A DNA stretch of 64,000 nt from Streptomyces sp. SPB162 (GTDB taxonomy: Bacteria > Actinomycetota > Actinomycetes > Streptomycetales > Streptomycetaceae). The stretch spans positions 3,045,001 through 3,109,000 of the forward strand of contig NZ_JAQFII010000001.1 in the NCBI RefSeq assembly GCF_029504575.1, in the 5' to 3' direction. Position numbers and translations under genes: made by a program. This document shows positions 52,113 through 60,528 of the stretch, piece by piece (position 1 is the first letter of the stretch; each line of letters starts with the position of its first letter). The notes below the pieces were generated by a model, which saw only the letters and a list, made by a program, of their open reading frames with translations, did not search any database and was not told where the DNA came from.

Positions 52113-53480
52113 TCAGCGGCGCAGTCTGCGCCACGGTGTGAAGGTGAAGACGGCGCCGCCGAGGAGGAGGACGGTGCCGGCGACGAGGCCGAGGGCGCGC
52201 AGCGAACCGTTGTTGTCGGCGCCGGTCTGGGCGAGGCCCCCGCTGGTGGTGGTCGCGCTGTTGGCGGTCCCGCCGTCGGTACCGCCGCCGGCGGTGCCCT
52301 TCTCCGCGATGACGAGCGTCAGCGACGCGGCGACCGCGTTGGTCGGCGTGCAGGTCGCAACGGGCGTGCCGCCCTGGGCGAGCTGGACGGCCAGGACGCC
52401 CGGGTGGAGCGTGACCTTTCCGGTCTTGCGCGGGGAGTAGACGCCGGTCAGGGGGTCGAGGGTGACCGGGTCGTCCTGGGCGAACGCCTTGGTGTTGGGC
52501 GGCGCCTTGACCTGGGCCGTGCCGCTGTCCGCGCCCGCCACCTTGACGGCCATGGTCGCGGTGATGAAGCCCTTGGGGAGGGGAGCGGGGGTCTTCATGA
52601 CCGAGCCGAGGAACCGCACCGAAAGGGCGTAGCCGGCACTGTTCTTGGTGGCGTCGACCACCGCCTGGCCGGTCGGTTTGCCGAACGTCCCGCAGTCGAA
52701 GGTCACGGAGACCGCCGTGCCCTTGTGCACGGTCCCGTTGGGCTCACCGCCGCCGCCCGTCGTACCCCCGGAGGTCGTACCCCCGGACGTGGTGCCACCC
52801 GACGTCGTACCACCGGAGTTGGTGCCACCCGACGTCGTACCGCCGGAGGTCGTACCGCCGGAGGTCGTGCCCCCGGAGGTGGTGCCGCCGGAGGTCGTGC
52901 CGCCCGACGACGTGCCGCCCGTCACCTTGATCGTGACCGCGACCGGAACGGTGCCGGTCGGCGCGCACGCGGTGTCGGTCGACATGATGTAGTTCGCGTT
53001 GATGTTGTACGCGCCGGGCGAGAGGGTCACATCGCCCGCGGCGGTCAGTTTGACCTTGCCCTTCATGTCGGACAGCACCATCGGGCTGTTCTTCGGGATC
53101 GCGGGATTCGTCCGGGTCCCCGCGACGTCCAGCGAGCCGGTCTGCGCGCCGCCGATCGTCACCTTGCCGGTGGGCAGCACCGAGTTGGCGGGGAGGTCCG
53201 CGACGCCCGGGTTCTCCGACGCGGCCTGCACCGTCTTCCACGTCACGTCGATCGTGTCGCCGACCTTGGCGGTCGCGGGCGCGGTGATGTCCGCCTTGGT
53301 CGTCCCGTTGACGTCCGGCAGGTTGGCGATCTTCGGTGGTATGCACTTGGTCGCGAAAGAGGACACGGCGGCCTGCGCGGGTGCCGCGATCAGCAGCACC
53401 GAGCCGCCGCCGAGCATGAGCGCGACCCCGGCCGCGGTGGCGGCCCCGCTCCGCCGCCGTCGCGATAGTCGATTCGTCAC
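52113..53480 (-). CDS. Secreted repeat surface protein with LAQTG sorting signal
   Basis: A 455-residue exported, probably cell-wall-anchored protein. Residues 1-38 form a long Arg-rich signal peptide. An N-terminal module (about 45-185) with CIPPKIANLPDVNG and KVTIGGAQTG is homologous to that of the WxL-like protein. Residues about 187-243 are 10-11 GGTTS repeats. A second module (about 250-390) matches the LPQTG-tailed protein (KTGKVTLHPGVLAV). The C-terminus has LAQTG (416-420), a hydrophobic helix and WRRLRR, a classic sortase signal; LAxTG is used by class E sortases in Streptomyces. GTG start overlaps the preceding gene by 4 bases. No sortase gene is in this window. Confidence 0.85.
   Translation of the reverse strand: MTNRLSRRRRSGAATAAGVALMLGGGSVLLIAAPAQAAVSSFATKCIPPKIANLPDVNGTTKADITAPATAKVGDTIDVTWKTVQAASENPGVADLPANSVLPTGKVTIGGAQTGSLDVAGTRTNPAIPKNSPMVLSDMKGKVKLTAAGDVTLSPGAYNINANYIMSTDTACAPTGTVPVAVTIKVTGGTSSGGTTSGGTTSGGTTSGGTTSGGTTSGGTNSGGTTSGGTTSGGTTSGGTTGGGGEPNGTVHKGTAVSVTFDCGTFGKPTGQAVVDATKNSAGYALSVRFLGSVMKTPAPLPKGFITATMAVKVAGADSGTAQVKAPPNTKAFAQDDPVTLDPLTGVYSPRKTGKVTLHPGVLAVQLAQGGTPVATCTPTNAVAASLTLVIAEKGTAGGGTDGGTANSATTTSGGLAQTGADNNGSLRALGLVAGTVLLLGGAVFTFTPWRRLRR
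52754..52920. repeat. 15-bp tandem repeats encoding (GGTTS)n
   Basis: About eleven near-identical 15-base units encode repeated GGTTS (one unit GGTNS) in the surface protein. Units vary mostly at third positions (GAGGTCGT, GACGTCGT, GACGTGGT on the plus strand), implying selection for the peptide plus slippage expansion. Confidence 0.88.
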
Positions 53481-54706
53481 GTGCTTCCCTTCGAAGATGG
53501 ACGGTCGGTACTCGGTGCGGAAGTCGGTGGCGGTTCCTCGGCGGCGGCCGGGGCCGGCAGGGTGCCCTGACTGAACCAGGGCAGCGTGCCGGTCTCGTCC
53601 GGGGCCCGGGAGCCCGCTGGGCGCACGCCGTCAGGCGGTGGCAGCGGCCGGCTCGGCGTGGAGCGCCGGGGCGGTGGCAGGTGGAGCAGCGCGGCGGGCC
53701 GCCAGGGGGCCTTGCGGCGGCGGCCGGAGGCGTAGATCGTGCCGGGCAGCCGCGGTCGCGCCCGCTCCACGACGGCCATCCCGATCCGGAAGACCGCGGC
53801 CGGCACGACGACGCAGAGCAGGATCCAGAAGAGCGTGACGCCCCAGGGGCGGCCGACGTCCCAGGGCTCCGTGACGAGCACCTTGCCGCCGTACCTGAGC
53901 TGCACCCGGTAGTCGCCGTGCGCTCCCGACGCCAGTTCGACGGGCAGCTTGATCTGCTGCTTCATCCCCGGCGCCACGCTGCCGCTCCACTGCTGCTCCT
54001 CCCACTGCGGGGCGAAGACGCCGTGCGAGACACCGATCTGGAAGACCGGGTCCTTGACCGGTCCCGAGCCGAGGTTGCCGACGGTGAAGACCAGCCGGCG
54101 CTGGGGCGGTGAGCCGAACCAGGTGAGCAGCCCGCCGCCGCCCTCCAGCCGGGCGGTGAGCACCGCGAGCCGCCCGGCACCGGACTGCTGCGGCAGCTCG
54201 GCGACCGGATGCCCGGTGACGGTGAAGGGGGCGTCGACGGTGACGGAGTCGCCCATCACCGTCGCGACGTGCACGACGCAGGGGCAGGGTTTGGGCGGTG
54301 CGGCGGTCGGCAGCTTCTGGGTGAAGCCGCCCTTGGCGTCGGTGGTGACGGCGCGGCCCGACGCGTTGGAGCAGGAGTTGGTGCCGCCGATCGCGTTCTG
54401 CCCGCAGACCAGGAGGGTGAGCAGCGTGGCCGGCTTCCAGCCCCGGCCGGTGACCGTGATCTCCGTACCGGGCTTGGCCTCCCGCGGCGACAGCGCCACC
54501 GCGGGTTTCTCGTCGGCGGCGGCCGCCCGCACGGCCGCGGGGTTCGGCACCGCCACCGGGTTCAGCACCGCCACCCCGCTCGGCACCGCAGCCGACTCCG
54601 GGGCCGCCTGCGACGGCTGCGCGGTGAGCGCGGAGAGGACGAGCAGCACCGTGGCGAGCACGGCGGCCGCCACCGCCCGGAGTAGGTCCCTGTGCATGGT
54701 GCTCAC
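53477..54706 (-). CDS. Membrane-anchored secreted protein with Ig-like domain
   Basis: A 409-residue protein, not assigned to a named family. Signal sequence at 1-37. A first module (about 70-160) has SPREAKPGTEITVTGRGWKP, two cysteine pairs and a beta pattern resembling neocarzinostatin or Ig-like folds. A second all-beta module (about 190-300) leads to a transmembrane helix (LFWILLCVVVPAAVF, near 310) and a Pro-rich tail of about 90 residues that would be cytoplasmic. GTG 54706 overlaps the stop of the DUF916-type gene as GTGA, and its own stop overlaps the LAQTG gene start, so all three are translationally coupled. Probably a scaffold of the same surface complex. Confidence 0.75.
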   Translation of the reverse strand: MSTMHRDLLRAVAAAVLATVLLVLSALTAQPSQAAPESAAVPSGVAVLNPVAVPNPAAVRAAAADEKPAVALSPREAKPGTEITVTGRGWKPATLLTLLVCGQNAIGGTNSCSNASGRAVTTDAKGGFTQKLPTAAPPKPCPCVVHVATVMGDSVTVDAPFTVTGHPVAELPQQSGAGRLAVLTARLEGGGGLLTWFGSPPQRRLVFTVGNLGSGPVKDPVFQIGVSHGVFAPQWEEQQWSGSVAPGMKQQIKLPVELASGAHGDYRVQLRYGGKVLVTEPWDVGRPWGVTLFWILLCVVVPAAVFRIGMAVVERARPRLPGTIYASGRRRKAPWRPAALLHLPPPRRSTPSRPLPPPDGVRPAGSRAPDETGTLPWFSQGTLPAPAAAEEPPPTSAPSTDRPSSKGST

Positions 54707-55788
54707 GCCTGTCCGCCCCTGCTTCCCACGCTCGTCACGCCGATCGCCGCCGCTGCCGTCCCGCCCTCGGGATCGGGATCGGAATCCTCTTCCGCCGGCC
54801 GCGGCGGACGGTTCCTGCGGCGCCTGACGACGAACCAGGCGATGAGCAGCGCCAGTCCGGCGAGCAGCACCCCGGCGGCGAGCCAGGGGACGGCGAAGAA
54901 CGAAACGTGGGCGGTCTCGTTCAGTTCGCCCCGGTCGGTGGTGACGGTCAGCCGCACGCTCACCCGATCGAACTGCGGCGCCCCGGCCCACTTCTCGGTC
55001 AGCTCGACCTGCTGCCCCGGCAGGAGTTCCAGCGGCAGGCCCTTGGCCTGCCGGTCCAGCAGGGTGTTGCCGAACAGCCCGGTGGCCTTGAGCCGCAGGC
55101 GCGGCAGCAGGGAGACGTTCCCCCGGTTGACGAGGGTGTAGTGGATGGCCGCGCTGCTGCTGCCGGTGCCGGGCAGCCAGGGCTGGCCGTGGTCGACGCG
55201 GACGTTCTCCACGGAGAGCGCGGGGAGGCTGGGGCCGCTCACCCGCAGGTAGATCCGGGCTCCGACGGCCCGCCGTACGCCGACCGCCACGCTCCCCTTG
55301 CTCTTGTCGGTCTCGGTGTTGAGCGCGACGATCGCGCCGGGGTGGTCGCCGGGAGTGGCGGTGTCGGGGACGGTGAGGGTGAACGGGATGTCGGCGCGGG
55401 TCCTGGGCGGGACGGTGAGGCTGCCCTGCGCGAGCTTCACCCAGGTGCCGACGTCCTTGCTGGTTTCCTCCGGGCCGCGCACGGCGAAGCCGCCGTCGCG
55501 CGGGGTGTTGTAGGCGTCGGCGCCGTAGATCTTGAACTGCATCGGCGCGTCGGAGAGGTTGGAGACCGAGACCTTGTCCTTGACGGTGGTGCCCGGCCCC
55601 GCCTCCAACGTGAAGAACTGGCGTTCCTGGCTGGTGCTCGTCCTGTCCTTGGCTCCGCCCGCCGGGGCGGGGAAGACCGACCAGCGCCCGTTGTCCGCGG
55701 CGCCGGCCGGTCCTGCCGCGGGACCGAGGCCGATGCCGAGCAACGCGGCGACCGTCAGCAGCACTGCGCACGCCTTGGCCCTCGACAT
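54703..55788 (-). CDS. DUF916-type (WxL-interacting) membrane protein
   Basis: A 361-residue exported protein with a C-terminal membrane anchor. Signal peptide at 1-31; then a WxL-interacting-protein/DUF916-like module (about 32-165; GRWSVFPAP, GTTVKDKVSVSNLSDAPM, DIPFTLTVPDTATPGDH) and a second module (about 170-290; GARIYLRVSGPSLP, NRGNVSLLPRLRLK). One helix (VPWLAAGVLLAGLALLIAW) ends in a basic, acidic-tailed cytoplasmic segment. In Firmicutes, such proteins bind peptidoglycan and WxL proteins at the surface. ATG 55788 fits the AGGGAG position better than ATG 55797. Next to the WxL-like gene, 39 bases downstream. Confidence 0.8.
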   Translation of the reverse strand: MSRAKACAVLLTVAALLGIGLGPAAGPAGAADNGRWSVFPAPAGGAKDRTSTSQERQFFTLEAGPGTTVKDKVSVSNLSDAPMQFKIYGADAYNTPRDGGFAVRGPEETSKDVGTWVKLAQGSLTVPPRTRADIPFTLTVPDTATPGDHPGAIVALNTETDKSKGSVAVGVRRAVGARIYLRVSGPSLPALSVENVRVDHGQPWLPGTGSSSAAIHYTLVNRGNVSLLPRLRLKATGLFGNTLLDRQAKGLPLELLPGQQVELTEKWAGAPQFDRVSVRLTVTTDRGELNETAHVSFFAVPWLAAGVLLAGLALLIAWFVVRRRRNRPPRPAEEDSDPDPEGGTAAAAIGVTSVGSRGGQA

Positions 55789-55827
55789 GTCTGGCATCTC
55801 CCTCGGTCCGGGTTAACTGACTGTGCG

Positions 55828-57162
55828 TCAGGTAAGGGTCAGGGTCAAGACTCCGGAGTAGGTTCCTGGCGAGGAGAAGGCCGGAACGTCCAGCGACAGA
55901 CCCGCGTCGGCGGTGAACTCACCACCGGTCACGGTGCCGTTGGGCGTCGTGGCCAGCGTGGCGCCCGCCGTGCCCACGGCGCCGGGCGAGCCCGCCGCGC
56001 AGGCACTGAGGCTGCCGGCCTTGGCGGTGCAGGCCGGGGTCCAGCTGAGCTTGTCGGCGCCGATGACGGTGCCACCGGGGCCCTTGAAGTCGGTGACCGC
56101 GCCGGTCAGGGACCAGCCCGCGGCGCCGCCGCGGAAGTCCTTGACGGTGACCGTCTGCAGCGCGCCGGTCGAGGCGCCGCCGTCACCGAAGTTCACCGGG
56201 GTCATCTCCACGGTGTCGCCGGCCTGGGTCATGGAGAGCGTCCCGGCGGTGACCGAGGCGTTGAGCTTCTGGCTCCCCGGCGGAATGGGGGTGTTGTCGT
56301 TGACCTTGTACGCGACCGGGCCCGCCGCGGTGGCCGGGTCGTAGCTCGCGCCCTCGAAGGCCACGATGCCGGTGGTCGCGGGGTCGTTGACGACGAGCGA
56401 GGCGGTGAAACCGCCCTGCGCGTCGGCGGTCGCGGAGGCCATGTCCGCCGTCGGGTTGGACCCGGCGATGGCCAGGACCGTGACGGTGGCGCCCGCGGTG
56501 AAGTGGCCGCCGGTGACGGCGACCGCGGTGCCCGGGTCGCCCTGGGCCGAGCCCAGCGCCAGGGTGCGCGGGTTGGGGTTGGTCGCCGGGCTCGCGGTGA
56601 CGGTCTCGGAGACCGGCGCGGGCGGGGTGATCACCGTGCAGACGGTGTCCAGTTCCAGGATGTAGCTGGTGTGGATGGTGTAGTCGCCGGGCGACAGGGT
56701 GATGGCGCCGGGAGCGGTGACCACGAAGGTGCCGGTCATGACCAGCGCCGGGAAGGCGCCCTTGCCCGGGATCGGCGGGTTGCTCTTGGGGCCGGTCACG
56801 GCGACCGCGCCGGTCTGGGCGCCGCCGAGCACGACGGTGGCGCGGGGGGTGACGACATCGGCGGGCAGCGCGATGTCCGTCGGGTTGCTCGCGGCCGCCT
56901 TGGTGAGCGTGTAGGTGACGGTGACCGTGTCACCGACCTTCGGGTTCGACGGCGCGACCGTCACGGTCGCGTTGGACACGCCGTCGATGGGCGGCAGCCC
57001 GGCCACGGCGGGCGGGATGCAGTGCGTGTCGAAGTTCACGGCCGTCGCCGCCTGGGCGGGCGCCGCGAGGACCGCGCCGCCCCCCACCATGAGTGCGGCG
57101 GCCCCGAGCACGGCGGCCAGTCTCCGTCCGCGCATGACGGATCTTCGCGCGTGAGCGATCAT
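55828..57162 (-). CDS. WxL-like domain secreted protein
   Basis: A 444-residue exported protein. Signal peptide at 1-38 (ARR, then an Ala/Val/Gly core and AQA). N-terminal module (about 40-190; DTHCIPPAVAGLPPIDG, LGGAQTGAVAV, DYTIHTSYILELDTVC) is shared with the LAQTG protein. A central all-beta module (about 200-290; DPGTAVAVTGGHFTAGATV) is IPT/Ig-like. The C-terminal module has DFRGGAAGWSLTG and ends in GTYSGVLTLTLT, matching the layout of WxL surface domains; the first Trp-x-Leu is present but the second is LTLT. AAGGGGA precedes ATG 57162. First gene of the four-gene coupled operon. Confidence 0.78.
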   Translation of the reverse strand: MIAHARRSVMRGRRLAAVLGAAALMVGGGAVLAAPAQAATAVNFDTHCIPPAVAGLPPIDGVSNATVTVAPSNPKVGDTVTVTYTLTKAAASNPTDIALPADVVTPRATVVLGGAQTGAVAVTGPKSNPPIPGKGAFPALVMTGTFVVTAPGAITLSPGDYTIHTSYILELDTVCTVITPPAPVSETVTASPATNPNPRTLALGSAQGDPGTAVAVTGGHFTAGATVTVLAIAGSNPTADMASATADAQGGFTASLVVNDPATTGIVAFEGASYDPATAAGPVAYKVNDNTPIPPGSQKLNASVTAGTLSMTQAGDTVEMTPVNFGDGGASTGALQTVTVKDFRGGAAGWSLTGAVTDFKGPGGTVIGADKLSWTPACTAKAGSLSACAAGSPGAVGTAGATLATTPNGTVTGGEFTADAGLSLDVPAFSSPGTYSGVLTLTLT

Positions 57163-57333
57163 CTTGTCCCCTTGATCACGGTCCGGGCGCAGCGTCCCTT
57201 TTCCTCTGCGCCGACGCTGGACATTGAGACGGCGTGACCGAAAGAAGTCAATGGAGCCGGGCGCCCAGATTTGACTGACCGTCAGATCGGCTATCCACCC
57301 TGGTCAGGGCGGATGAACAGCGGACATGCCGAG

Positions 57334-57372: not shown

Positions 57373-58077
57373 TCAACGGGTCCGAGCGGCCCTGCGGGTG
57401 AGCCAGAGCACGCCGGCGACACCGGCGAGCAGCACCGTGCCGCCGAAGGTGCCCAGCGCCACGGCGCTGTCGGCCGGACCGGTCTGCGGCAGCGTGGCGG
57501 ACTCGTCCGGCGCGGTCGTGGCGCCGCCGCTGCCACCACCCGCCGCCTTGACGTCCAGCGACAGCGAGGGCTTGGGGCTGTTGGTGGCGTTGCAGGTCGT
57601 CACCGTGCCGAGGGCCTTGATGGTGAGCACACCTGCCGTGAAGGTGACCTTGCCCGACTTCTTGGGCGTGTAGGTGCCCGTCAGATCGTTGATCTTGATG
57701 GGGGAGTTCGCGGGGATCGCCGCGTCGTTCGGGGTCCCCACCACCGACACGGTGCCCGGGTCCGCTCCACCGACCTTGATCGTCGCACTCGGGTTCATCG
57801 CCCCCTTGCCGAGTTCGATCGGGCTGGAGGAGACACCCTTCTTGAAGGTCATCGTGAGTCTGTAGCCGGAGCCGGACGCGACGCTCGTGATGTCGATGGG
57901 CGACACCGCGTCCTTCTTCCCGATCGGCGACTGACAGCTGTAGGCGACGTCCACCGTCTCCGCGTGTGCGGCCGGGGCGGCCAGCAGCGCCGCACCCGCC
58001 GCCGTCGCCGTCGCGAGTGCCAGCACTCCACCGCGGGCGGCCGCTCTGCCGCGGACGCTGTTCATGACGTGTTGCAT
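57373..58077 (-). CDS. Secreted protein with LPQTG sorting signal
   Basis: A 234-residue exported, probably cell-wall-anchored protein. Signal peptide at 1-39 (Arg-rich, then LALATATAAGAALLAAP). The mature part is one module (about 40-170; KAMNPSATIKVGGADPG-like, TPKKSGKVTFTAGVLTI) matching the second module of the LAQTG protein. C-terminal LPQTG (196-200), a hydrophobic helix and RRAARTR form a canonical sortase signal. GGAGAAGA before ATG 58077. A terminator separates it from the WxL-like operon. The substrate sequence differs from LAxTG, so a different sortase may handle it. Confidence 0.85.
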   Translation of the reverse strand: MQHVMNSVRGRAAARGGVLALATATAAGAALLAAPAAHAETVDVAYSCQSPIGKKDAVSPIDITSVASGSGYRLTMTFKKGVSSSPIELGKGAMNPSATIKVGGADPGTVSVVGTPNDAAIPANSPIKINDLTGTYTPKKSGKVTFTAGVLTIKALGTVTTCNATNSPKPSLSLDVKAAGGGSGGATTAPDESATLPQTGPADSAVALGTFGGTVLLAGVAGVLWLTRRAARTR

Positions 58078-58367
58078 GGGCTCTTCTCCCTTCCGCCACC
58101 AGTTACTGACGGCACATCAGATTCGGCGGCCGACAGTACGCCCGTGACCTTGGAGAGGGAAGAGACAATGCCTGCCCGGCGGGTCACCGGTACATCAGGG
58201 ACGGGCGGGGCCCGGGGCCCGGGGCCGTGAGAAGCCCTCCGACGGGGCATGAAGAAACGCCGGAACACCGTACGGGGGGGTGGTCCGACGTTGCGGTGAC
58301 GCAGCGGCCGTGGTGCGGCTTCGGGGCTCGAAGGCCAGGCGTTCGGCTCGGGCGCCGGGCGCTCCGG

Positions 58368-58853
58368 TCAGGCTCCGGCGGGCGCCGTCAGCTCGGCCCA
58401 GACCGTCTTGCCCGGCCGCTCGGAGTGCCGTGCGACGCCCCAGTCCGAACAGAGCCGCTGCACGATGAACATGCCGTGCCCGCCGGGCCGGCCCGCCCGG
58501 TGCGGGACGCGGGGCGTCGGCTCTCCGTCGCCACTGTCGGCGACCTCCAGGCGCAGCACCTTGGGGCTGTGGATCAGCCGCAGCTCATCGGGGCCGTCCG
58601 CGTGCAGGCACGCGTTGGTGACCAGTTCCGAGACGACGAGCAGGACGTCCTCGGCCGCCGCCCGGGCCTCCGGCGTGGAGGCGGGCAGCCATCCCCAGGC
58701 CTGCAGCGCCTCGCGAGTGAAGTCGCGGGCGCGCGGAACGATGGCACTCTCACCCAAGAGCCGCAGAACGCGCGCGGATCCGGCCTCGGGTGCGACAGAG
58801 TCGCCCGGGTCCGAACCGCGGTCGTCCGCCGCGGGGGGCCGAGTGGTGCTCAT
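58368..58853 (-). CDS. Anti-sigma factor ATPase/kinase (PrsI/RsbW-like)
   Basis: A 161-residue GHKL ATP-binding protein of the RsbW/SpoIIAB type that would hold a SigB-family sigma factor inactive and phosphorylate its anti-anti-sigma partner. ATPase motifs: N-box LVVSELVTNACLHA and G1 LEVADSGDGEP with the G2-like GGHGMFIVQRLC. The N-terminus is acidic/Pro-rich. Forms a module with the STAS protein and the sigma factor, matching the S. coelicolor SigI-PrsI-ArsI arrangement as remembered. GAGGTGAGGCG precedes the ATG at 58853. Could also act on other sigma factors. Confidence 0.85.
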   Translation of the reverse strand: MSTTRPPAADDRGSDPGDSVAPEAGSARVLRLLGESAIVPRARDFTREALQAWGWLPASTPEARAAAEDVLLVVSELVTNACLHADGPDELRLIHSPKVLRLEVADSGDGEPTPRVPHRAGRPGGHGMFIVQRLCSDWGVARHSERPGKTVWAELTAPAGA

Positions 58854-58976
58854 CGACGCCTCACCTCACCGATGTCCGACAGTTTCAGGAGTCTCCTGCC
58901 CGACGAATTCCCGAGGACACCTCGGAAGCTCTACCAAACAGGGTGGAGTGGGAGATCGCCACCGGCGACGCTTCCG

Positions 58977-59345
58977 TCACTCCTGCAATGCCTCGTCCAA
59001 TGTCGCGTGGACGGTGAACACGGCTTCGGCGCCCGTGATCTCGAACACACGCGCGACTACCGGCAGCATACCCGCCAGATGGACCTTCCCACCCGCCGCC
59101 TCGGCCTTCAGCCGGGCACCCAGCAGGACGTTCAGTCCGGTGGAGTCACAGAAATCCAACTCGGAGCAGTCCACCACGAGCTTGGTGCAGCCCGCGTCGA
59201 CGCATGCTTCGAGCGGCTCGCTGAGCAGCTCCGCCGTGTGGTGGTCCAGTTCGCCCGCAGGCGTGACGACGGCGCACGTGCCGTGCTGTCGCACAGCCAC
59301 GTGCAACCGGTCCCGGCCGGCCGTCCCGACCATCCCGCGGTCCAT
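58977..59345 (-). CDS. Anti-anti-sigma factor, STAS domain (ArsI-like)
   Basis: A 122-residue STAS protein of the SpoIIAA/RsbV type. The phosphorylatable Ser is in LDFCDSTGLNVLLGA, preceded by LVVDCSELD; dephosphorylated protein would bind the anti-sigma factor and release sigma. ATG 59345 has GAGGAG 6 bases before it and is preferred to further-upstream ATGs. Divergent from the sigma gene with 292 bp between them, and 123 bases upstream of the anti-sigma gene in the same direction. Confidence 0.86.
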   Translation of the reverse strand: MDRGMVGTAGRDRLHVAVRQHGTCAVVTPAGELDHHTAELLSEPLEACVDAGCTKLVVDCSELDFCDSTGLNVLLGARLKAEAAGGKVHLAGMLPVVARVFEITGAEAVFTVHATLDEALQE

Positions 59346-59514
59346 GTGCGCTCCTCTGGAATCTTGGGTCATGCGCACACCGAACCCTACGCGCATCACG
59401 AATCACGCGGAAGCCGTGGCCCGGCTACCCGGTGAGCGCCCCTCGAGCGCCTTCCGCCTGCCCCTTCCGGGGCACGGTAATCGTCCTACGGACCGAAGAC
59501 CGAAAATTTGCGCC

Positions 59515-59545
59515 AGTGGCGTGAAACGGGGTAGGGGTTGAACAA
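59515..59545 (+). promoter_or_regulatory. Possible stress-type promoter of the sigma gene
   Basis: GGGGTAGG near 59526-59534 resembles the GGGTA -10 box of SigB-family promoters about 105 bases before the start codon. The matching GTTT -35 is not clear at 14-16 bases upstream, so autoregulation is only a possibility. Confidence 0.25.
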
Positions 59546-59637
59546 CACTTGTCGATAAACGGCCGCCTCGGAGGCGCAGCACACCGTACAAGAGGCATGG
59601 CACCGGCAGCCTGATGCCGCAACCGAGGGAGGAGAGC

Positions 59638-60528
59638 ATGACACCCCGGCCTGACGCGATCACCGCGACGAAGACCCACCCGTCCATAGGCTCGGACCAG
59701 GAAGAACTGGACGAGCCGGAGGGCTTGGAGGGCCTCCCCGAGATACCCCCGTTCCAGACGGTGGGGCCGGTGGACGCACGCGCCCTGTCCAAGACTCTGT
59801 TCCTGCGCCTCGAGACGCTGGACGAGGGCACGTACGAGTACTCCTACGTCCGCAACACGCTCGTGGAACTCAATCTCGCCCTGGTGAGATTCGCCGCTGC
59901 CCGGTTCCGTACCCGCAGTGAGCCGATGGAGGACATCGTCCAGGTCGGCACGGTCGGCCTGATCAAGGCGATCGACCGCTTCGAACTGAGTCGCGGAGTG
60001 GAGTTCCCCACGTTCGCGATGCCGACGATCATCGGCGAGATCAAGCGCTTCTTCCGTGACACCAGCTGGTCGGTGCGGGTCCCGCGCCGTCTGCAGGAGC
60101 TGCGGCTCGACCTGGCCAAGGCCGGCGACGAGCTCGCCCAGCAGCTGGACCGCGCGCCGAACGTGGCGGAGCTGGCCGCCAAGCTGCGGATCAGCGAGGA
60201 AGAGGTCATCGAGGGCATGGCCGCGAGCAACGCGTACACCGCGAGCTCGCTGGACGCCCAGGCCGACGAGGACGACTCCGAGGGCGCGCTGACCGACCGC
60301 ATCGGTTACGAGGACAGCGATCTCGAGGGCATCGAGTACATCGAGTCGCTGCGCCCGCTGATCGCGGAGCTCCCGGCGCGCGATCGCAAGATCCTCTCGC
60401 TGCGCTTCACCGGCAACCTCACCCAGTCGGAGATCGGCGAGGAGCTCGGCATCTCGCAGATGCACGTCTCGCGACTGCTCTCCCGGACGTTGGCGCGGTT
60501 GCGACGCGGGCTCCTCGTCGAGGAGTGA
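59638..60528 (+). CDS. RNA polymerase sigma factor, SigB/SigF/SigG family (SigI-like)
   Basis: A 296-residue stress/development sigma factor. Region 2: RNTLVELNLALVRFAAARF, VQVGTVGLIKAIDRFELS and FPTFAMPTIIGEIKRFFR; region 3: RVPRRLQELRLDLAKAG; region 4.2: LTQSEIGEELGISQMHVSRL. The length fits the group. ATG 59638 has GAGGGAGGAG before it. Adjacent to STAS and anti-sigma genes, so activity is most likely controlled by partner switching, as for SigI of S. coelicolor. The N-terminal 40 residues are Glu/Pro-rich. Confidence 0.92.
   Translation: MTPRPDAITATKTHPSIGSDQEELDEPEGLEGLPEIPPFQTVGPVDARALSKTLFLRLETLDEGTYEYSYVRNTLVELNLALVRFAAARFRTRSEPMEDIVQVGTVGLIKAIDRFELSRGVEFPTFAMPTIIGEIKRFFRDTSWSVRVPRRLQELRLDLAKAGDELAQQLDRAPNVAELAAKLRISEEEVIEGMAASNAYTASSLDAQADEDDSEGALTDRIGYEDSDLEGIEYIESLRPLIAELPARDRKILSLRFTGNLTQSEIGEELGISQMHVSRLLSRTLARLRRGLLVEE

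Follow-up and report, generated by a model that had tools for sequence, protein, structure and literature searches.

Gene content of the operon

We examined an operon for secreted and membrane-bound surface proteins on the minus strand of a 64,000-nucleotide stretch of Streptomyces sp. SPB162 (contig NZ_JAQFII010000001.1, positions 3,045,001 to 3,109,000; this whole stretch is the window, and coordinates refer to it unless a genome position is given). In the order of transcription, the genes encode an LPQTG protein, a WxL-like protein, a membrane protein of the WxL-interacting type (WxLIP; DUF916), an Ig-like membrane protein (here called the third protein), and a LAQTG protein, with lengths given in amino acids (aa):

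57373-58077, minus strand: first gene, secreted LPQTG sortase substrate, 234 aa (NCBIfam LPXTG_anchor, 19.3 bits, cut-off 15.9)
55828-57162, minus strand: WxL-like protein, 444 aa (motifs, their C-terminal position, WxLIP partner)
54703-55797, minus strand: WxLIP (DUF916) protein, 364 aa (PF06030 above cut-off)
53477-54706, minus strand: third protein, Ig-like, membrane, 409 aa (GTGA overlaps with both neighbours)
52113-53480, minus strand: LAQTG sortase substrate, 455 aa (sorting signal; without a family match in the profile libraries)

A preliminary description of this DNA had reported four linked leftward genes with GTGA overlaps, a 39-base gap, membrane segments, and a LAQTG sorting signal, and all of these are present. 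The third gene overlaps the DUF916 gene (54703-54706) and the LAQTG gene overlaps the third gene (53477-53480), in both cases by GTGA, and the gap between the WxL and DUF916 genes is 39 nt when counted from the second ATG and 30 nt from the first. The four genes are real, but the LPQTG gene that heads them had been overlooked, and the operon begins one gene earlier than first noted.

The genome contains 11 sortase-domain matches, three of them within ~3.5 kb at G000:C1:4001476-4005010 (L084-L086, L112). Chaplins are class E sortase substrates of Streptomyces. The two anchored proteins of the operon share an LAxTG/LPxTG signal, a membrane helix, and a basic tail with the class E substrates of Streptomyces and Actinoplanes (CwpA/CwpB, PMC13251363), from which they differ in their outer domains, unrelated as far as known, and in standing alongside WxL and WxLIP proteins.

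The WxL-like protein and its membrane partner

The WxL-like protein has a signal peptide (a hydrophobic, signal-like segment at the N-terminus), an N-terminal beta domain, a middle domain with the neocarzinostatin fold, and a C-terminal WxL-like domain, the WxL motifs lying at aa 342-443 of 444:

56293-56574, minus strand: neocarzinostatin-fold domain, aa 197-290 (AlphaFold model and structure search)
56101-56139, minus strand: first WxL motif DFRGGAAGWSLTG, aa 342-354 (Asp at W-8, Arg at W-6, G..xAG turn)
55834-55860, minus strand: second motif position YSGVLTLTL, aa 435-443 (Leu replaces the second Trp)

Across an alignment of 10 orthologues (A1), which includes a relative with only 33% identity, the Asp, Arg, Gly, Trp, Ser, and Leu of the first motif core DFRGGAAGWSL are invariant; the Asp and Arg have been described as structural in Firmicutes WxL (PMC9772566). 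At the second position, Y435, L439, T440, L441, T442, and L443 are invariant and all 10 aligned orthologues have a Y...LTLTL-type end, and other actinobacterial partners of WxLIP likewise carry Leu or Ile where the second Trp would stand. The profile search against PF13731 gave an E value of 0.0028 and 18.1 bits, under the cut-off of 25, with weak matches in 9/10 WxL orthologues (best 2.7e-4), and the WxL-end region of the AlphaFold model has a confidence score (pLDDT) of 33-65 by block. The WxL identity proposed earlier therefore holds for the textbook first motif and the C-terminal position, and fails on the second Trp and the profile score. Because of these two shortfalls, we regard the 444-aa protein, from its motif, position, and partner, as WxL-like rather than as a formal member of the family.

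The identity of the DUF916 protein, also proposed earlier, is firm (PF06030, E 1.2e-8, 35.5 bits, cut-off 27.3). It is the sole PF06030 match in the genome, and the profile also matches 13/14 aligned WxLIP relatives. After the PGBD (DUF916) follow a second stretch, Ig-like by its position, and a C-terminal membrane helix (hydrophobic from aa 295, with basic residues after it). DUF3324 (HBD) gave no Pfam match after the PGBD of the window WxLIP at E values up to 1 and is absent from the families listed for the 14 relatives. Sequence searches for relatives of solved structure, made with the WxL-like protein, WxLIP, and the third protein, returned none that was significant.

Neocarzinostatin-type domains and domain sharing

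The middle domain is the best-modelled part of the WxL-like protein (pLDDT ~70-94 by block). It aligns to 1nco_A with a VIA-align Z of 12.2 (root mean square deviation [rmsd] 2.2 over 88 residues, 28% identity), and its top seven structural matches are all neocarzinostatin or macromomycin (Z 11.5-12.2, rmsd 1.8-2.4), the next row having a Z of 9.1; as modelled, this domain has the neocarzinostatin fold. Domains of this fold are known carriers of hydrophobic molecules.

The third protein consists of a neocarzinostatin-like domain with two Cys pairs, an Ig-like domain, a membrane helix, and a Pro-rich tail. Its match to PF00960 is just under the cut-off of 25 (3e-5, 24.4 bits), that to chromo_anti is under the cut-off of 86 (6.9e-8, 32.4 bits), and its domain resembles the middle domain of the WxL-like protein (35% identity, 4e-5); its AlphaFold model was set aside (mean pLDDT 47.5). 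Profile comparison, with a shallow alignment for the third protein, gave no homology to WxLIP. Compared with the enediyne apoproteins of the neocarzinostatin family (PF00960), the operon shows the same fold in the WxL middle domain and the spaced Cys pairs and near-threshold match of the third protein, whereas the third protein stays below curated cut-offs and the domains are here embedded in large wall- or membrane-attached proteins.

The LAQTG protein combines an N-terminal domain 45% identical to that of the WxL-like protein (3e-32), a (TSGG)n-type linker, and a C-terminal half 37% identical to the LPQTG protein of the first gene (4e-22). Given these matches within the operon, one set of domains builds both the sortase substrates and the WxL-like protein. 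The preliminary description mentioned neither this sharing nor the neocarzinostatin-type domains.

Conservation across Actinobacteria

The preliminary description had taken the operon for a WxL/WxLIP-type surface operon related to the Firmicutes system; family matches bear this out, and the genes are conserved and adjacent. In 20/20 fetched PF06030 neighbourhoods, WxLIP is directly preceded by a gene for a WxL-like secreted protein, recognised by a WxL1 motif, a Y..LTLTL-type end, or both, so the arrangement is not due to chance. All five genes also occur in five more genomes of the genus (L031, L032, L033, L073, L076), and L075 has four, its third gene not having been recovered. WxLIP is present in 23 of the 35 genomes that sample the streptomycete genus of the source genome and in 28/296 genomes drawn across the phylum, and full-length WxL orthologues (>400 bits) occur in 66/298 genomes of the family. 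Among named relatives, Streptomyces fildesensis INACH3013 and two Streptomyces sp. are the closest (WxLIP identity 90-94%).

Distant Actinobacteria (L036/L077, L050, L054) also have a homologue of the third protein after WxLIP, and one adjoins WxLIP in L163 as well. In one more distant actinomycete (L077:7633-9141), a putative HtaA-WxL protein is followed by WxLIP and a third-protein homologue. One WxL orthologue (G014:C152:14291-15233), in a genome with 21 copies of the palindromic site described below, is interrupted by an in-frame TGA, through gene decay or an assembly error.

Adjoining the operon (58368-60528), we read by eye genes for an anti-sigma-type ATPase, a STAS-type protein, and a sigma-B-type factor, a neighbourhood whose synteny is kept in the clade and in Streptomyces G057 (L163). 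In G057, it adjoins counterparts of the first and third genes (64% each) together with a diverged WxLIP (36%), and a WxL-WxLIP pair lies elsewhere.

Several WxL-WxLIP classes exist. A second widespread class (L066, L067, L070-L072, L074, L079, and similar) pairs WxLIP with a ~650-aa protein ending in YxATLTITALSS and is preceded by a ~400-aa multi-helix membrane protein. The window operon has one WxL-like gene. The genome has a second one ~144 kb away, at a locus (L104:4772-9553; G000:C1:2954772-2959553) with a 545-aa WxL-like protein, a 663-aa protein in which IPT/neocarzinostatin-like segments recur (by eye), a small secreted protein, and no adjacent WxLIP.

A palindromic site before the operon

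Three copies of a palindrome, one exact and two degenerate, accompany the operon:

58106-58120, no strand assigned: palindrome CTGAYGNNNCRTCAG (minus strand CTGATGTGCCGTCAG), 28 bp before the first-gene start codon, the only exact match in the window
57271-57285, no strand assigned: degenerate copy CTGACGGTCAGTCAA, two mismatches, 19 bp before TTGACT (57246-57251), upstream of WxL
55817-55831, no strand assigned: one-mismatch copy overlapping the WxL stop codon, kept in the clade but partly coding

With the reversed pattern as control, CTGAYGNNNCRTCAG is found 27 times in this genome (control 1) and 23 times in Streptomyces G057 (control 0), and across the genus the counts per genome are 5-42, with controls of 0-4. 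The palindrome also precedes the first gene in L031, L032, L033, L073, and L075, with one mismatch in L076, and in G057 it lies 36 bp upstream of that gene. The degenerate copy at 57271-57285 occupies the place that the palindrome has in orthologous loci. There, the palindrome is found upstream of WxL in 24/24 loci of a first set (22 exact) and within 300 bp upstream of WxL in 36/40 loci of a second set (22 exact, whereas first-order shuffling gives averages of 0 exact and 0.2 with one mismatch), so that, counting up to one mismatch, it stands before 60/64 WxL relatives in both sets. At the second WxL locus of the genome (C1:2956976-2958049), an exact site lies between the WxL-like and 663-aa genes, 104 bp before the neighbouring surface-protein gene. 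A further copy occurs just after a sigma-B-type gene in both this genome and G057 (L118:4614, L166:3202).

Over 55 orthologous loci, many of them drawn from one genus and so not independent, the palindrome forms a nearly fully conserved island that varies at its Y/R positions and lies in variable flanks, and TTGAC follows it at a fixed 18-19 bp in 51/55. Given the varying flanks, this pattern argues that the site is under selection. An activator would fit its place upstream of a -35-like box, and a repressor the place 28 bp before the first-gene start. Upstream of WxL in L138, L141, L143, L144, L146, and L151, we observe a longer inverted repeat around the palindrome, in the best case GATGCCGCAGAAA...TTTCTGCGGCATC, which could form a hairpin.

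Within the genus, genomes with this WxL class have 24-41 sites and the others 5-42 (median 18; Mann-Whitney, p 2e-4, or 0.0015 with near-identical genomes collapsed, which removes shared ancestry only partly).

Catabolic genes sharing the site

A gene start lies within 400 bp downstream of 19/26 sites examined in this genome, and ten of the 27 sites fall in one 60-kb stretch (G000:C1:3273860-3334036; L101, L102, L103, L108). The genes beside the sites are mainly catabolic, with Pfam families that include thiolases, ChsH2-like zinc ribbon/OB proteins, MaoC/MFE-2 hydratase, acyl-CoA dehydrogenase, acyl-CoA ligases, P450, FMO-type and luciferase-type monooxygenases, flavin reductase, amidohydrolases, and SRPBCC; one acyl-CoA ligase of the 60-kb stretch passes the FadD3-family cut-off. 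Site-adjacent in both genera are a luciferase-like oxygenase, two amidohydrolases, a flavin reductase, an acyl-CoA ligase, an SDR, an SRPBCC protein, a P450, and a 279-aa hypothetical protein (68-93% identity), and, from the operon itself, the first gene (64%) and WxL (65%). From the shared site, it is very probable that the WxL operon belongs to the CTGAYGNNNCRTCAG regulon. The best candidate for its regulator is a TetR encoded in the catabolic cluster (L102:6698-7351) and conserved in G057 (84% identical).

CTGAYGNNNCRTCAG differs from the usual KstR and KstR2 boxes. The regulon otherwise resembles the KstR/KstR2-type TetR regulons of actinobacterial sterol catabolism (PMC1995591) in its dispersed palindromes at thiolase, ChsH2-like, acyl-CoA dehydrogenase, and P450 promoters and in that its cluster holds both a ligase of the FadD3 family and a conserved TetR; it differs in that KshA was not found and in including a WxL surface operon. 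Classical steroid ring degradation was considered and rejected, the ring hydroxylase KshA not being found in this genome (91% complete), and for this reason we do not claim sterol catabolism. The Mce importer was likewise rejected as a regulon member, its operon at 4.12 Mb not being near a site.

Relation to Firmicutes csc/WxL clusters

The locus shares with the csc/WxL clusters of L. plantarum, Enterococcus, and Listeria (PMC1534035, PMC9772566, PMC10599100) a secreted WxL protein, a WxLIP with a C-terminal membrane helix, and an LPxTG partner, all in one operon, as well as, with L. plantarum, a catabolic type of regulation (PMC1534035). It differs in that the operon encodes a single WxL protein where those clusters have at least two, Leu stands at the site of the second Trp, Pfam gives no match to DUF3324, a neocarzinostatin-like membrane protein is added, a large LAQTG partner shares domains with the WxL protein, and the control site is another one. 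The locus resembles a csc/WxL cluster yet lacks two of its stated features, two WxL motifs and two WxL proteins per cluster.

The combination of a WxL complex with sortase substrates had been put forward as distinctive. The LPQTG and LAQTG substrates do belong to the operon, but the mixture of WxL and sortase anchoring is already known, as Firmicutes clusters usually, though not universally, include an LPxTG protein, CscD (PMC1534035, PMC9772566). What is new is the single-Trp form, the neocarzinostatin domains, the sharing of domains with sortase substrates, and the catabolic regulon, on which no paper was found among the open-access papers searched. Nor did we find there any description of WxL in Streptomyces, of the palindrome, or of the regulon of the 60-kb stretch, which is present in two genera.

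Proposed function and alternatives

We propose, with a probability of roughly 0.5, that the locus encodes an actinobacterial csc-like complex that is part of a catabolic regulon and probably acquires a hydrophobic substrate. The membrane-held WxLIP would keep the 444-aa protein at the cell wall by its C-terminal WxL-like domain, as WxLIP is predicted to complete and stabilise WxL in Firmicutes (PMC10599100), and assembly of these two proteins as a complex is likely. The neocarzinostatin-like membrane protein and the two sortase-anchored proteins, which draw on the same set of beta domains, would complete the assembly, as their conserved adjacency and shared domains suggest. With its neocarzinostatin-type domains, the complex may then bind a hydrophobic substrate at the wall, either as such or on particles, a step that we put forward tentatively. 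It would be deployed when a CoA-linked degradation pathway for a hydrophobic compound is on, the other regulon members degrading a fatty or cyclic hydrophobic compound via CoA-linked monooxygenases, P450, thiolases, ChsH2-like proteins, acyl-CoA dehydrogenases, and acyl-CoA ligases. A wall-held complex that presents neocarzinostatin-type and related beta domains during the degradation of hydrophobic carbon is suggested by analogy with Firmicutes, where the csc clusters of L. plantarum are under catabolite control and have been proposed for carbon acquisition (PMC1534035). More speculative still is a dedicated WxL-like capture apparatus with neocarzinostatin-fold binding domains for a sterol-, terpenoid-, or fatty-acyl-like substrate, co-induced with its degradation by an undescribed regulator.

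Several observations weigh against this proposal. Four lower-scoring WxL relatives (217-243 bits; two other genera, g200 and g203) have no site, and no exact palindrome was found near the WxLIP classes with the ~650-aa partner. KshA was not found in the genome, and the Mce operon lies away from any site. The neocarzinostatin fold doubles as a generic Ig-like scaffold; in the WxL-like protein, its copy is shorter and has no cysteines, so that a ligand pocket there remains putative.

The locus could instead encode a surface-architecture or developmental complex that coats hyphae or spores and serves adhesion or morphogenesis, the site merely timing its expression with nutritional state. Some surface proteins that actinomycetes anchor by sortase have a part in development, such as CwpA/CwpB of Actinoplanes (PMC13251363), this genome has 11 sortase-domain matches, and the operon adjoins the anti-sigma ATPase, STAS, and sigma-B-type genes both in the window and in G057. 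That neighbourhood, however, is kept for the first gene, the diverged WxLIP, and the third gene, whereas the Streptomyces WxL-WxLIP pair lies elsewhere and retains the site, and in two genera the conserved site places the operon among degradation enzymes. We therefore consider this explanation doubtful. The role in hyphal surface or development suggested by the preliminary description is unsupported, and since the control site is common to the operon and to dispersed catabolic genes, uptake is preferred to hyphal shaping.

Less probable is a reading in which WxL is a mere wall anchor, its N-terminal modules binding heme or other small hydrophobic ligands that differ by lineage. HtaA is a heme-binding module. 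An HtaA domain (5e-42) is present in one aligned WxL relative, by elimination the 33%-identical L077 protein with its divergent N-terminal half, and the Streptomyces version has a neocarzinostatin fold in its place, but HtaA was seen in one genome only.

That the palindrome before WxL is a hairpin, terminating the upstream gene, rather than an operator, with a coincidental catabolic link, is very unlikely: several Streptomyces loci do embed it, between WxL and the gene upstream, in a longer inverted repeat that is perfect, but the longer stem is absent from many loci, the sites at catabolic promoters have an identical core, the TTGAC distance is fixed despite variable flanks, and the control pattern is nearly absent.

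In the literature, WxL complexes figure as systems of Firmicutes, chiefly gut commensals, with a virulence or polysaccharide role. Soil actinomycetes widely carry the same core, in a variant that lacks the second Trp, and neocarzinostatin-fold domains are here placed on a wall-attached complex. The conserved control site provides a metabolic context, which makes WxL function testable by growth on defined substrates. If the dedicated capture apparatus considered above exists, WxL systems would have a role in substrate acquisition beyond Firmicutes and beyond polysaccharides.

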